From: Pontibacter ramchanderi | GTDB taxonomy: Bacteria > Bacteroidota > Bacteroidia > Cytophagales > Hymenobacteraceae | DNA length: 64,000 nucleotides | Assembly (NCBI RefSeq): GCF_002846395.1 | Contig: NZ_PJMU01000001.1 | Coordinates: 1,054,001 to 1,118,000, forward strand | Direction: 5' to 3' | In this document: one piece after another, positions 21,514 through 28,871 of the stretch | Numbering within the stretch: the first letter of the stretch is position 1 | Layout: each line of letters opens with the position of its first letter | The notes under the pieces: model-generated | Seen by the model: the letters and a program-made list of their open reading frames with translations, nothing else | Database searches by the model: none | Told to the model about the DNA's origin: nothing | Program-made: the position numbers and the translations under genes

Positions 21514-22989
21514 ATGGAAAACATCATCAGCTCGGTGAACGACATCGTCTGGAGCAACGCACTTATCGTCCTTTGCCTGGGGGCAGGTGTGTACTTCTCC
21601 TTCGCTACCAAATTTCTGCAGATACGCTATCTCCGCGAAATGCTGCGCCTCCTTTTTCAGGGAGAGTCCTCCCACAAAGGCATCAGTTCTTTCCAGGCTT
21701 TTACCGTGGCCATTGCCGGACGGGTGGGCACGGGTAACATTGCCGGTGTCGCGACGGCGATTGCCATGGGCGGACCGGGCGCTGTGTTCTGGATGTGGAT
21801 GATCGCCTTCCTGGGCAGTTCGTCTGCCTTTATAGAGGCCACCCTGGGCCAGATCTACAAGCAGGTAAAAGACGGACAGTACCGGGGTGGCCCTGCTTAC
21901 TACATCGAAAAAGGCCTTGGCGTAAAATGGTACGCGGTGGTGTTTGCGGTCGCCACCATCATCAGCATGGCCCTGTTCCTGCCGGGCGTACAGAGCAACA
22001 GCATTGCCTCGGGTATGAGCACGGCCTTTCAGATACCGATGGCCTATACGGGCGGTGCGGTTACGCTGCTGCTCGCCCTGATCATTATAGGTGGTGTGAA
22101 GCGCATCGGTAACGTGGCGCAGATCGTGGTGCCGTTTATGGCGGGTGCTTATATCCTGATGTCGGTGGTGATCATCCTGATGAATATTTCGGAGGTGCCG
22201 GCCATTTTCAACCTCATCTTCAGCTCTGCCTTTGACCTGGAGCCCGCTTTTGCCGGCGTGTTTGGTATGGCCATTGCCTGGGGCGTGAAGCGCGGCATCT
22301 ACTCCAACGAAGCAGGCCAGGGCACGGCGCCGCATGCCGCCGCCGCTGCCGAAGTGAGCCACCCGGCCAAACAGGGACTGGTGCAGGCCTTCTCTGTTTA
22401 CATCGACACGCTTTTCGTTTGCTCGGCCACGGCTTTCATGATCCTGTTTACGGGGCAATACAATGTAGTGAACCCGGAAGGCGGCTTCCTGGTGGAGAAC
22501 CTGCCCGGTATACCTTACGGACCGGAGTATACGCAGCTCGCCGTGAATGAGCACTTCCCTACACTGGGCAGCGGTTTTATCGCCATTTCGCTGTTCTTCT
22601 TTGCCTTCACCACCATCATGGCTTACTACTACATCGCCGAAACCAACCTGAGCTACCTGAACACCAAAAACAGAAAGTGGATGCTGTGGGCGCTGCGAAT
22701 CCTGATACTGGCTGCCACTTTCTATGGCTCCGTGAAGACGGCGGAATCGGCCTGGACGCTGGGCGACATCGGCGTGGGCCTGATGGCCTGGCTGAACGTG
22801 ATCGCGATCTTCTTGCTCCGCAAACCTGCCTTACGTACCCTGCAGGATTACCTGGCTCAGCGCAAAGCCGGCCTCGACCCAACCTTCGACCCGGTGAAGC
22901 TCGGTATAAAGAACGCCGGCGACTGGAACAAAGCGATCGGTGTTGATCAAGAGGAAACCATGGATCAAAGAGAATTGAAAGCGGTTTAG
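21514..22989 (+). CDS. Sodium/alanine symporter family protein (AGCS)
   Basis: A 491-residue inner-membrane transporter with about ten to eleven helices, moving small neutral amino acids with sodium. Family blocks: SSFQAFTVAIAGRVGTGNIAGVATAIAMGGPGAVFWMW (a conserved loop; residues about 65-100), GGPAYYIEKGLG near 128, and SNEAGQGTAPHAAAAAEVSHPAKQG near 268, the signature with conserved Asn, Glu and Gly. It is 491 residues, normal for the family. It is monocistronic, ending in a strong terminator 20 bases after the stop. Confidence 0.95.
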   Translation: MENIISSVNDIVWSNALIVLCLGAGVYFSFATKFLQIRYLREMLRLLFQGESSHKGISSFQAFTVAIAGRVGTGNIAGVATAIAMGGPGAVFWMWMIAFLGSSSAFIEATLGQIYKQVKDGQYRGGPAYYIEKGLGVKWYAVVFAVATIISMALFLPGVQSNSIASGMSTAFQIPMAYTGGAVTLLLALIIIGGVKRIGNVAQIVVPFMAGAYILMSVVIILMNISEVPAIFNLIFSSAFDLEPAFAGVFGMAIAWGVKRGIYSNEAGQGTAPHAAAAAEVSHPAKQGLVQAFSVYIDTLFVCSATAFMILFTGQYNVVNPEGGFLVENLPGIPYGPEYTQLAVNEHFPTLGSGFIAISLFFFAFTTIMAYYYIAETNLSYLNTKNRKWMLWALRILILAATFYGSVKTAESAWTLGDIGVGLMAWLNVIAIFLLRKPALRTLQDYLAQRKAGLDPTFDPVKLGIKNAGDWNKAIGVDQEETMDQRELKAV

Positions 22990-23050: not shown

Positions 23051-23143
23051 AATGGCAATACTATTTTGTGCAGACTATCCTACTCTGTTCGAAGTCCGCT
23101 AAATGGGCGCTTCAAAGCTTCTCCATTAGGTTTCTGCCAATGA

Positions 23144-23167
23144 AACTGTCCCCTTGAGGGGGCAGTC
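23144..23167. repeat. Palindromic repeat copy 1 (truncated)
   Basis: ACTG, then CCCCTTGAGGGGG, then CAGT: the core of the TCCCCTTGAGGGGA repeat family with symmetric flanks but without the AGGGGTGT tail seen in other copies. It lies in AT-richer DNA between the symporter terminator and the DUF559 gene. Confidence 0.8.
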
Positions 23168-23214
23168 TCGCTTGCCTAAGAAACTTATTTTTTAAGATTT
23201 AGAATAATAGTGGG

Positions 23215-23245
23215 AACTATCCCCTTGAGGGGATTATAGGGGTGT
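23215..23245 (+). repeat. Palindromic repeat copy 2, upstream flank of the DUF559 gene
   Basis: Core ATCCCCTTGAGGGGAT followed by TATAGGGGTGT. It is oriented opposite to copy 3 beyond the gene; together they enclose the DUF559 gene as inverted repeats about 545 bases apart overall. Confidence 0.85.
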
Positions 23246-23344
23246 CTTTCAAACCTATAAAGCCAGCACTGTTGCTCTCCGCAGAACTTAAAAATACTGC
23301 CTTTTGTATGGGTTACAGAACTTTGAATATGGCAAATAGCAGGT

Positions 23345-23713
23345 ATGAAAAAGAACACCATTATACCTTACAAAGAGTATCTCAAAGCCAAAGCAAGAGA
23401 GCTGAGGAAAAACAGTACACTTGCTGAGATCCTTTTATGGCAGGAAATAAAGGAGCGAAAATTAATGGGTACCCAGTTTCACAGGCAAGTACCTATGCTA
23501 GATTATATTGTTGATTTCTATTGTCACGAGCTACAACTAGCAATCGAGATAGATGGAGACAGCCATGATTACAGTTTTGACTATGATACAAAGCGACAGT
23601 CGGAACTGGAACAGTATGGGGTAAGGTTCTTAAGATTCGATGATATTGAGATCAAGAAAAATATCCAAAATGTACTGCGAACATTAGAGCACTGGATTAC
23701 TGAGAACAAGTGA
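23345..23713 (+). CDS. DUF559 domain protein (Vsr/PD-(D/E)xK-like endonuclease)
   Basis: A 122-residue protein made of one DUF559 domain, related to very-short-patch repair and restriction-like nucleases. Visible features: ARELRKNSTLAEILLWQEIK (helical start), FHRQVPMLDYIVDFYC (conserved Asp), LAIEIDGDSHDYSFDYDTKR (catalytic-like E-x-D and His), and VRFLRFDDIEIKKN. Length is typical. DNA around it is clearly AT-richer than the neighbouring genes, and it lies between inverted copies of a palindromic repeat, which suggests the unit moved as a whole. No known role; a homing, repair or repeat-mobilising nuclease is possible. Confidence 0.88.
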   Translation: MKKNTIIPYKEYLKAKARELRKNSTLAEILLWQEIKERKLMGTQFHRQVPMLDYIVDFYCHELQLAIEIDGDSHDYSFDYDTKRQSELEQYGVRFLRFDDIEIKKNIQNVLRTLEHWITENK

Positions 23714-23731
23714 TATCGCCGGTGCACGATT

Positions 23732-23759
23732 ACACCCCTATAGTCCCCTCAAGGGGACA
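23732..23759 (-). repeat. Palindromic repeat copy 3, downstream flank of the DUF559 gene
   Basis: ACACCCCTATAGTCCCCTC plus AAGGGGACA, the reverse orientation of copies 2 and 4. It starts 19 bases after the DUF559 stop. Confidence 0.88.
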
Positions 23760-23846
23760 CTCTTTTCTTGCGGGTTCTAAGGCTATTCCAGGGAAACAAC
23801 TTCTATTTTGATACTAAAAGTATCCAACTAATAAATAGTAATAACG

Positions 23847-23878
23847 GAACTGTCCCCTTGAGGGGACTACAGGGGTGT
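23847..23878 (+). repeat. Palindromic repeat copy 4
   Basis: GAACTGTCCCCTTGAGGGGA then CTACAGGGGTGT, the most complete copy of the family; nearly identical to the copy at 28762. Confidence 0.9.
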
Positions 23879-23934
23879 AGAGGCGGTGATGGAAAGCAAC
23901 TAATCACCTATTTGCGATTTCCTCTCTAATGTAA

Positions 23935-23996
23935 ACACCCCTCTGAGAGCTACGCTCGCTACCTTCGAACTCGCATGCTCAGTAATCCTCAAGGGG
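23935..23996 (-). repeat. Palindromic repeat copy 5, long variant
   Basis: ACACCCCTCTGAGAG at the left and TCCTCAAGGGG at the right, with about 35 bases inserted where the centre would be. The insert contains CTGAG and CTCAG arms, so it can fold separately. It aligns to the long copy at 28913 in overall plan. Confidence 0.7.
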
Positions 23997-24076
23997 TGAA
24001 TCCCGTTGAACGAAACAACCCTGTCTTTAATAGGACTACAAGGGTGTAATCGTGCACAAACTATATCTCCCAACAA

Positions 24077-26533
24077 TCACAGAGCGGTCCGCTCCCACTC
24101 CACCTCCGGAAACACCACCTCCAGCTGCCGTTTGATCACGCGGTAATTCCCTTTCCAGAAACTGCCAAGATCCGATACCGCCGTGATCGGTTTCAACTCC
24201 GGGGTAAGCAGAGCCAGTTCCACGGTCATCTCGCCATCGTCTACTGTCGGGCTTTCCTCCCAGCTTAGCACGTCCTGCAGGCGTATCTCCAACCTCGGCT
24301 GTGCGCCATCGGGTTTATACTCCAGCTCTATAGTTGAACCATCCGGCAGCGCTAAAAAAGCAGGTGCCAACATATCCAGTCGTTCGCGCTGTGAATCATC
24401 CAGGTACTTCTTCTCCAGTATTGGCAAGAGTTCCAGTTCCATCAGCTCATCCGGGTGCTCGATGTCGAAGAGGTAGGGCTTCAGCCAATCCCAGTTGATC
24501 ATGAGCAGGGTGCTGGTGCTTACGTCGGGCCAGAACTCGGAGGGGCGCCATTTGCGGAGGCTCATCACGCGGTTTTGCCATTGCGTGAGCTCGTGGTTGA
24601 AGTCCAGCAGGTGCTCGCCTTCTGCTTTGATGGCCTCGGAGATGGCCGGTACGCGGTGCTTCTCGTCGGGTGGTGGCAGCGGCTTGCTTTGCAGCACGAT
24701 GCTGCCGATGCGGGTGTCCAGCGAGGCAGTGAGTTCGCCCTCGTTTACGTCCCAGTGGTATACCTCCTGCTGCTTCAACAGCGGAGCCAGGTCGCGTGGA
24801 TTGAGCGGCGAGGCCAGGAAAATGCGGCCCGGGTTGTCGCCCGAACCGGCATGCATATGCGCCACGGACAGCCAGGGCTCGTGCGCCAAATCGTCGCGGT
24901 GACCGGCGGAGGCGTACTGTCCGCTGGCCAGCTGGAACTGCGCGTTGTTGCCGGGACGGGCGTAGGCGATGCGCTCCGGGTAGCAATGCGCCAGCAGCAC
25001 ACCAGTTTCATACTCGTCGAAGGTACCGTTTTCGGGCGCTACCTCAAACAGCTGGCGATACGAGCGGGCAATCTTCTCGATCTTGGCAAAACGCTTGCCC
25101 TGCCCCTGTTCGGCTCTATACCTGCGCAGGGCTTCCACTCTTAAGTTAATGTCGATGCCGGCGTTGCGGTCCAGCGGATCGCGCTCTTCCAGAATGGCAG
25201 CAATGTCACTGGCCAGGGCTACCTGGTCGGTTTCTTCGGCTTTGAGCAGCATGTGCGCGATACGCGGGTGACAAGGCAACGCGTGCATTTTCCTGCCATG
25301 CTCCGTAATGCGGCCGTTCTCCAGCGCCTGCAGCTGGTGCAGCATCTCGGTGGCGTATTGCAGGGCGGCACGTGGCGGCGGGTTGAGCCAGGTCAGGCTG
25401 CGGATGTCCATAATACCCCACTGCGCCATATCGAGCACCAGGTTGGCCAGGTCGGCTTCCATGATCTCGGGGGTGCGGTGCGGGGACATGCGCTCCTGCG
25501 TGGTTTTGCTCCACATACGGTAGGCCGTGCCGGGACCCAAACGACCGGCACGACCGGCACGCTGGTCGGCGGCGTCTTTGGAGATACGCGCTGTTTCGAG
25601 GCGCGACAAACCCGACTTCGGATCGAAGCGGGAGGTTTTGCCGAAGCCCGTATCCACCACCACCGAAATGCCTTCTATGGTTAAGCTGGTCTCGGCAATG
25701 CTAGTCGCCAGCACCACCTTGCGCCTGCCCTGGCGGTCGGGCATGATGGCGGCGTACTGCTTGCCGAAGGGCAGCATACCGAACAGCGGGTGTATCTGCA
25801 CGCCGCGCAGCTGCTTGCGCAGGAGAATCTCTACTTTGCGTATGTCGTTTTCGCCGGGCAGAAACACGAGGATATCGCCTTCCTGCTCCTTGGCGGCCTG
25901 CTGCACCACTTTGGCAGTCATTTCGGGCAGCATGCGGTCGTCGGCGTCGCCGGTGTAAAAGGTCTCGATGGGGTATTGCCGCCCCATGCTCTGCGCCACC
26001 GGGGCCTTGAGCAGGCTTGTGAGCTGAGGCATGTCCAGGGTGGCCGACATCACCATGATGCGTAGGTCCGGGCGAAGCACTTGCTGCGCTTCCCGGCTCA
26101 GGGCCATGGCTACATCGGCATGGATGCTGCGCTCATGAAACTCGTCGAAGATCACGATGGCTATACCTGTCAGCGAGCGGTCGCTGTGGATCATGCGGGT
26201 GAGGATGCCTTCGGTCACGACTTCAATGCGGGTTTTGTCTGAAATGCGGTTCTCAAACCGGATACGGTAACCGACGGTCTGGCCTACCTCCTCGCCCAGC
26301 AGCTGCGCCAGGCGCTCGGCAATGGTTTTGGCCGCCAGGCGACGCGGCTCCAGCATGATGATCTTCTGATCTTTCAACCAGGGCTCGTCGAGTATCGCCA
26401 GCGGCAGCAAGGTGCTTTTACCTGCTCCCGGAGGGGCGTTTACGATCAGGGTATTCTGCGCCGAAAGGTGTTCTCTGACGGCAGGTATGATTTCCCGAAC
26501 GGGGAGGTCTATGGAGAAGGGGTTGAAAGGCAA
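24077..26533 (-). CDS. hrpB: ATP-dependent helicase HrpB
   Basis: An 818-residue DEAH-box helicase of the HrpB family. Motif I NAPPGAGKSTLLPLA (residues about 33-47), DEFHERS in place of DEAH (motif II), SATLDM (motif III), TSIAETSLTIEGI and QRAGRAGRLGPGTAYRMW (motif VI) are visible. The C-terminal HrpB domain follows, with VMSLRKWRPSEFWPDVS. HrpB proteins are predicted RNA helicases; the cellular role is unclear. Nothing upstream suggests an operon. A CAAAGTTA (TAACTTTG on the minus strand) lies at 26586-26593 as a promoter box. Confidence 0.95.
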   Translation of the reverse strand: MPFNPFSIDLPVREIIPAVREHLSAQNTLIVNAPPGAGKSTLLPLAILDEPWLKDQKIIMLEPRRLAAKTIAERLAQLLGEEVGQTVGYRIRFENRISDKTRIEVVTEGILTRMIHSDRSLTGIAIVIFDEFHERSIHADVAMALSREAQQVLRPDLRIMVMSATLDMPQLTSLLKAPVAQSMGRQYPIETFYTGDADDRMLPEMTAKVVQQAAKEQEGDILVFLPGENDIRKVEILLRKQLRGVQIHPLFGMLPFGKQYAAIMPDRQGRRKVVLATSIAETSLTIEGISVVVDTGFGKTSRFDPKSGLSRLETARISKDAADQRAGRAGRLGPGTAYRMWSKTTQERMSPHRTPEIMEADLANLVLDMAQWGIMDIRSLTWLNPPPRAALQYATEMLHQLQALENGRITEHGRKMHALPCHPRIAHMLLKAEETDQVALASDIAAILEERDPLDRNAGIDINLRVEALRRYRAEQGQGKRFAKIEKIARSYRQLFEVAPENGTFDEYETGVLLAHCYPERIAYARPGNNAQFQLASGQYASAGHRDDLAHEPWLSVAHMHAGSGDNPGRIFLASPLNPRDLAPLLKQQEVYHWDVNEGELTASLDTRIGSIVLQSKPLPPPDEKHRVPAISEAIKAEGEHLLDFNHELTQWQNRVMSLRKWRPSEFWPDVSTSTLLMINWDWLKPYLFDIEHPDELMELELLPILEKKYLDDSQRERLDMLAPAFLALPDGSTIELEYKPDGAQPRLEIRLQDVLSWEESPTVDDGEMTVELALLTPELKPITAVSDLGSFWKGNYRVIKRQLEVVFPEVEWERTAL

Positions 26534-28761: not shown

Positions 28762-28793
28762 AAACTGTCCCCTTGAGGGGACCATAGGGGTGT
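28762..28793 (+). repeat. Palindromic repeat copy 6
   Basis: AAACTGTCCCCTTGAGGGGA then CCATAGGGGTGT. Same orientation and nearly the same sequence as copies 2 and 4; about 5 kb away from the DUF559 gene. Confidence 0.9.
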
Positions 28794-28842
28794 AAGGCTA
28801 CGGAGCAGGAGTCGGCAAATGACGGTGAAACAGCAGGTGTAA

Positions 28843-28871
28843 ACACCCCTATAATCCCCTCAAGGGGATAG
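28843..28871 (-). repeat. Palindromic repeat copy 7
   Basis: ACACCCCTATAATCCCCTC then AAGGGGATAG, reverse orientation, forming an inverted pair with copy 6 about 50 bases away. No gene lies between them. Confidence 0.88.

Follow-up and report, generated by a model that had tools for sequence, protein, structure and literature searches.

Architecture of the DUF559 locus

The window considered here, that is the whole analysed stretch of 64,000 nucleotides from a Pontibacter-like genome of 4.43 Mb (G000), contains an AT-richer stretch with a symporter gene (21514-22989) on one side and hrpB, the gene for an HrpB-type helicase (24077-26533), on the other. The two neighbours were named from reading their translations, which suggest a symporter of the sodium/alanine type and a helicase of the HrpB type, respectively. 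The GC content across the unit is 0.39-0.44, compared to 0.55-0.65 on both sides, in agreement with the AT-richer composition stated in the original prediction. The nearest DUF559 genes in public named genomes are, together with their orthologous neighbours, those of Pontibacter.

The unit contains a gene for a DUF559 nuclease of 122 amino acids with a predicted Vsr / I-Bth0305I fold (23345..23713, plus strand), which is enclosed by inverted copies of a palindrome with an attached tail, AACTRTCCCCTTGAGGGGAYTAYAGGGGTGT. The left palindrome (REP-L, 23213..23245, plus strand) consists of the hairpin TCCCCTTGAGGGGA, followed by the tail TTATAGGGGTGT directed toward the gene, while the right one (REP-R, 23722..23759, minus strand) is inverted relative to REP-L and carries the extended tail GGGGTGTAATCGTGCAC. 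The copies at 23213-23245 (plus) and 23732-23757 (minus) are 96% complementary over 26 nt, which bears out the opposite orientation of the palindromes and tails around the gene described in the original prediction. The perfect 16-bp inverted repeat that had been placed at 23722-23737 and 24042-24057 is present at exactly these coordinates, within a longer pair at 23712-23746 and 24033-24067. REP-R is followed by a segment of 97 bp reaching to the third palindrome (23757..23853, without strand assignment), which is inverted here relative to the relatives. The third palindrome itself (REP3, 23846..23878, plus strand) is the first half of a REPIN-like pair, and an expanded-hairpin palindrome (approximately 23938..24008, minus strand) represents the second half; REPIN is the term for the inverted-pair arrangement of known REPs. 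The REPIN-like pair at the place of 23938-24008 is present in the allele of G305 and absent from that of G335 and from L272 (P. amylolyticus). A remnant of the palindrome, TAATAGGACTACAAGGGTGTAATCGTGCAC (24026..24057, plus strand), matches the only palindrome that G311 and G304 have at their empty sites. There is also a decayed solitary copy, GAAACTGTCCCCTTGAGGGGGCAGT... (23142..23174, plus strand), which is 64% identical to the reference copy and missing from the orthologous loci compared. The expanded form results from a long extra hairpin, CCCCTTGAGGACAAGTGAGAACGAGAGTTCGAA...GAGCGAAGCTCTCAGAGGGGTGT, which is inserted in some palindrome copies (23938-24008 in the window; L022, L030, and L420-L424). 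A further REPIN-like pair of the same palindrome is located in intergenic DNA at 28769-28867 of the window, with 87 bp from start to start.

The motif CCCCTTGAGGGG occurs six times in the window with at most one mismatch, compared to a chance mean of 0.46, and 0 of 100 shuffles reached six occurrences, so the repeat is not a product of chance. Genome-wide, 26 exact copies of TCCCCTTGAGGGGA were counted (27 when one mismatch is allowed), compared to 1 for a backward-read control; most genome copies of the window palindrome are arranged as inverted pairs with their tails face to face. A search of the unit against Rfam returned only weak matches to microRNA precursors, with scores below the gathering score, which were regarded as hairpin artefacts.

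The assignment of the encoded protein to DUF559 is confirmed by its match to PF04480 (108.8 bits, cut-off 20.6). As judged from an AlphaFold2 model (pLDDT 89.8), the enzyme has the fold of the homing endonuclease I-Bth0305I and of Vsr, the best solved structural relatives being NGO0050 (Z 15.7), I-Bth0305I (Z 12.1), and Vsr (Z 9.5), and a sequence profile match to I-Bth0305I (3r3p) is obtained at E 4.7e-5. The residues E28, D57, E68, H74, and D81 are among the invariant positions in 40 relatives and may include EDxHD catalytic residues as in the active site of 3r3p. The dN/dS values of 0.05-0.10, calculated only for pairs with estimable dS, indicate purifying selection on DUF559, and PADLOC returned restriction and homing nucleases as weak hits. 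DUF559 is present in 170 of the 296 Bacteroidota genomes sampled.

Coupling of palindromes and DUF559 enzymes

Each of the four DUF559 loci in G000 is flanked by inverted palindromes, and these are of four different kinds, namely CCCCTTGAGGGG+AGGGGTGT at the window locus, CCCCCTTTGAAGGGGG+CAGGGGGATGA at L001, CCCCTCCTTGGATAAGGAGGGG+AGGGGTGG at L003, and the decayed CCCCCTCCT...AGGAGGGGG at L004. A sample of 199 distinct standalone DUF559 genes with their flanks, mostly from Bacteroidota (drawn from the phylum, the genus, and a named genome set), was compared to 327 random ORFs, which were taken from 20 stretches of genomes of this kind. A C/G-run palindrome with a G-run tail is found within 250 bp of 78% of the 199 genes versus 0.9% of the random ORFs, and on both sides of 43% versus 0%. 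Moreover, the two flanks match as inverted repeats (score of at least 30) for 66% of the DUF559 genes, as compared to 6.5% for mixed DUF559 flanks and 1.5% for random ORFs. These matching flanks of single genes indicate that each DUF559 gene tends to bear its own palindrome on both sides.

The similarity of the palindromes also correlates with the identity of the DUF559 proteins (Mantel r 0.51, pairs with homologous, that is orthologous, outer flanks removed; the maximum of 1000 permutations was 0.09). The five groups of Pontibacter DUF559 that were read (1a, 1b, 2a, 2b, and 2c) have one palindrome of their own each. Outside Pontibacter, the window palindrome is located beside 20 of 27 enzymes with at least 61% identity to the window enzyme, but only beside 3 of 29 less similar ones (below 61%), and it is found at none of the six Pontibacter enzymes with 61% identity or less. 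The hosts of the more similar non-Pontibacter enzymes are Winogradskyella, Flavobacterium, Maribacter, and others, which belong to a different class (Flavobacteriia). This comparison separates enzyme and host and is the most stringent form of the test. The palindrome type goes with the enzyme clade and not with the host, and gene and repeats do not vary independently, which the original prediction had named as a refuting outcome. Even among closer relatives, the silent sites of DUF559 have diverged strongly (dS of at least 0.5 within Pontibacter), and a short palindrome free of selection would not be expected to stay almost unchanged across such a distance.

The abundance of the window palindrome was counted in 41 Pontibacter genomes, defining the cognate clade 2c by at least 66% identity. 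The median is 22 copies in the 21 genomes containing clade 2c and 1 copy in the 20 genomes without it (Mann-Whitney p 4e-4, with the genomes being related and thus non-independent), and the repeats are therefore not equally common in genomes lacking the enzyme; equal abundance there had been named as a refutation of the link. Among the 12 genomes without any relative of at least 50% identity, nine contain 0 copies and the others 5, 8, and 8, while the four Pontibacter genomes without any DUF559 contain 5, 0, 0, and 0 copies. Two genomes are exceptions. G297 contains clade 2c and no exact palindrome copies, and G308 contains 74 copies with the cognate clade missing, although its close relative G334 has the clade. 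The copies in G308 imply that the palindromes persist, or could spread, without the clade, and both exceptions count against a nuclease-driven element. Taken together, the original view of the DUF559 nuclease as the partner of the palindromes is largely supported.

Probable mobility of the units and competing explanations

The empty-site comparison in relatives that had been proposed revealed that G000, G305, and G335 carry a unit between the symporter gene and hrpB, whereas G311 and G304 contain one palindrome in its place; a tree of hrpB does not distinguish gain from loss of the unit at this locus. In G300, a genome without any DUF559, the orthologous gap (L200) harbors two copies of a further palindrome, GGACAGGTCGCGACCTGTCC. 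In other genomes, a GIY-YIG gene or a DUF559 gene of another clade is found at the 3' end of hrpB, and the region around hrpB is too rearranged for empty-site comparison in the close-species pairs G301/G327, G310/G330, and G315/G307. The close species G334 and G308, which are collinear at about 90% identity, differ from each other in the DUF559 unit that occupies one intergenic site, and REPIN-like insertions are present in G308 at places that are empty in G334. Two copies of the unit in G306, located 5.6 kb apart, are 96.3% identical over 598 bp and have both ends at palindromes. Each of them (L451 and L275) comprises a clade-2c DUF559 unit inside what remains of a DUF559 unit of clade 1b. 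Since the clade-1b remnants are common to both copies on one side, nested units are involved, and because the shared segment includes this remnant of another DUF559 unit, the exact end of the G306 unit on that side is not fixed. Two further copies in G327 are 90.7% identical over 483 bp. The proposed mobile nature of the unit is thus supported by occupied and empty sites, by nested units, and by recent copies that have their ends at palindromes.

The segment of 97 bp from REP-R to REP3 is inverted relative to three relatives, showing identities of 0.72-0.81 as reverse complement and of 0.59-0.62 in direct orientation (the identical spacers of L195 and L273 were counted as one). For 21 of 22 REP-REP pairs, the distance between the two starts falls into one of two narrow classes, 57-59 or 80-84 bp, while the sequences of the spacers differ. 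The two classes differ by about two helical turns, as would be expected if one protein complex held both ends. Some REPIN-like pairs are located inside palindromes of other classes, with outer inverted ends CAGKGCYGTTAAG...CTTAACRGYCCTG (L009, L018, L020, L024, and L421), and about 12 bp are repeated on both sides of such nested pairs in five usable cases, possibly representing a target duplication.

We consider it fairly probable (about 60%) that the unit is an element resembling a REPtron, accompanied by non-autonomous pairs similar to REPINs and with a Vsr/EDxHD-type nuclease in the role of the HUH transposase. Its autonomous part would be REP(+)-DUF559-REP(-), and the non-autonomous part would consist of REP(+), a short spacer, and REP(-), with a near-fixed length and scattered between genes. 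DUF559, as a single-domain PD-(D/E)XK nuclease of the Vsr/EDxHD type, would recognise the palindrome of its own clade together with the G-run tail, probably in the form of a hairpin that is extruded or single-stranded, and it would probably keep two ends together. The enzyme would then nick or cut at the palindrome, and repair, with the homology provided by a further palindrome copy, would copy either the gene-bearing unit or a short pair into a palindrome. Pairing between inverted palindromes may lead to inversions, and segments between palindromes may also be deleted. The original prediction had treated the link between nuclease and palindromes as inferential. The architecture of the unit, the coupling of enzyme and palindrome, the link to copy number, the constrained spacing of the pairs, the polymorphic and duplicated units, the inversion, and the fold are results of the analysis, while recognition and cleavage of the palindrome by the nuclease itself, the copying by break repair, and the driving of the movement are presumed activities.

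A different explanation, which appears unlikely, would regard the unit as a passenger, with the palindromes serving as terminal repeats that are moved by some other enzyme of the host or of a mobile element, for example a RAYT or DDE transposase, and the nuclease having a different role such as repair or self-defence. RAYT-like Y1 genes were indeed detected in 34 of the 41 Pontibacter genomes, and the repeats of about 12 bp around the REPIN-like pairs within other palindromes (5 cases) resemble the target duplications of transposons. However, no match to Y1_Tnp (PF01797) was detected in this genome, and no Y1 gene in G306 and G335, which contain 44 and 17 palindrome copies, respectively. The palindrome copy number does not correlate with the Y1 transposase count in the 41 Pontibacter genomes (rho 0.05), and other palindromes (GGCACGAGCTGCAAGCTCGCGCCAGC, GCAAGTCTTCAGACTTGC, CGGACATCC...) are found near the Pontibacter Y1 genes at most of the five loci read (L244-L248). 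RAYT/Y1 enzymes were rejected as drivers on these grounds. Travelling as a passenger would also not by itself account for the abundance of distant short REP-REP pairs in genomes with the cognate enzyme.

We assign a very low probability to an explanation without any active movement, by which the palindromes would be ordinary intergenic hairpins such as terminators or mRNA stabilisers, and homologous recombination would shuffle, duplicate, invert, and delete the intervening segments, DUF559 included. The palindromes are intergenic and some are terminator-like, and recombination between repeats would be expected to yield the inversion as well as empty sites that retain one palindrome; that homologous recombination alone could yield the inversion, the duplications, and the empty sites also counts against the nuclease-driven element. 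Yet this explanation does not account for the presence of palindromes near 78% of the standalone DUF559 genes versus 0.9% of random ORFs, for palindrome types tracking the enzyme across classes, or for the two narrow classes of pair spacing. It seems similarly improbable that DUF559 acts in repair or defence as a nuclease of the Vsr kind, with the palindromes as its regulatory or protective sites, serving for example in expression control. This assumption does not fit with the dispersed REP-REP pairs distant from DUF559 genes, nor with the neighbours of the window unit, presumably a symporter and an HrpB-type helicase and not a methyltransferase. It draws on the weak PADLOC matches to restriction and homing nucleases and on VsrA of Caulobacter, a DUF559 protein that represents a Vsr-like nuclease and causes DNA damage responses in vivo (PMC12907096).

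Small GIY-YIG genes and relation to known systems

A comparable arrangement was observed for Pontibacter genes coding for GIY-YIG proteins of about 100 amino acids. Of 24 such genes, 67% contain GTCAT/ATGAC motifs on either side, compared to 7% of random ORFs and 9% of DUF559 loci. These motifs are often part of longer inverted palindromes, and one GIY-YIG cassette of G334 is lacking in the close species G308. Flanking palindromes of the GTCATCC/GTCATCTCGA type are found at the small GIY-YIG genes L249 (G000:C1:261639) and L352-L381. CGTC-tagged repeats, which are known also in Bacteroidetes, have been described as lacking a dedicated transposase (PMC3733652), and the GIY-YIG class could be a partner of REPs without known transposase, which, given the small sample, is a lead. 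We tentatively propose, as an idea which may well turn out to be wrong, that at least two unrelated small nucleases of Bacteroidota, DUF559 and the GIY-YIG proteins of about 100 amino acids, each spread their own dispersed palindrome family by cutting and break-repair copying, in a kind of homing with an intergenic palindrome as the site. If true, palindrome-spreading systems would not be restricted to HUH transposases. A DUF559-driven system would break the rule that ties dispersed bacterial palindromes to these enzymes and would account for a large group of the repeats found between genes in Bacteroidota. A tiny nuclease and a short site would make a natural pairing, and the standalone proteins of DUF559, a domain of unknown function, would gain a testable role. 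An open-access library that lacks most subscription journals yielded no paper linking DUF559, Vsr, or GIY-YIG to such palindromes, and an earlier description elsewhere is possible.

A view on known systems shows partial similarities to several of them. The short non-autonomous inverted-repeat elements in intergenic DNA are reminiscent of MITEs and IS-derived miniature elements, but differ from MITEs in that no DDE transposase was identified as partner and the ends are hairpins with tails. Vsr and Caulobacter VsrA share the fold (Z 9.5) and, in the case of VsrA, the DUF559 domain, but the flanking palindromes, the multicopy unit-like distribution, and the lack of a methyltransferase adjoining the window unit set the DUF559 units apart. 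Note that the pair described for VsrA is itself unlinked (PMC12907096), and the distance to a methyltransferase therefore does not settle the linkage to Vsr. With the EDxHD homing endonuclease I-Bth0305I and the related fractured-gene nucleases, the unit has in common the fold and profile of the catalytic domain (Z 12.1; E 4.7e-5) and the occurrence of empty sites with a single target-like palindrome, which may stem from either gain or loss of the unit. It differs from them by the lack of an intron or intein, and its sites are intergenic palindromes rather than a conserved gene. Phage EDxHD homing enzymes usually carry extra DNA-binding modules (PMC3943268), whereas DUF559 consists of a single domain of about 120 amino acids without such modules, which counts against the reading favored here.

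The closest parallels are seen with the REPtron / RAYT (TnpA-REP) systems, whose clade-specific palindrome families are dispersed in intergenic regions, often as inverted pairs that are presumed to be non-autonomous copies (PMC6006769, PMC3733652). As in these systems, one small enzyme gene is located between copies of a dispersed short palindrome, each DUF559 clade has its own palindrome family, and the palindromes form inverted doublets (REPINs). The partner enzyme, however, is a Vsr-fold PD-(D/E)XK nuclease (PF04480) instead of an HUH-Y1 transposase, and the DUF559 unit is placed outside the RAYT family because this defining enzyme was looked for and not found. Further differences are that the GT[AG]G foot is not conserved, the feet being GTAG, TATA, TATG, and AAAG (reverse strand), that the DUF559 palindromes carry a G-run tail, GGGG(A)TGR, and that the unit appears to be duplicated within genomes, whereas REPtrons are reported as not transposing as a unit. 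The DUF559 unit is thus best read as working like a REPtron and partly like a homing element.
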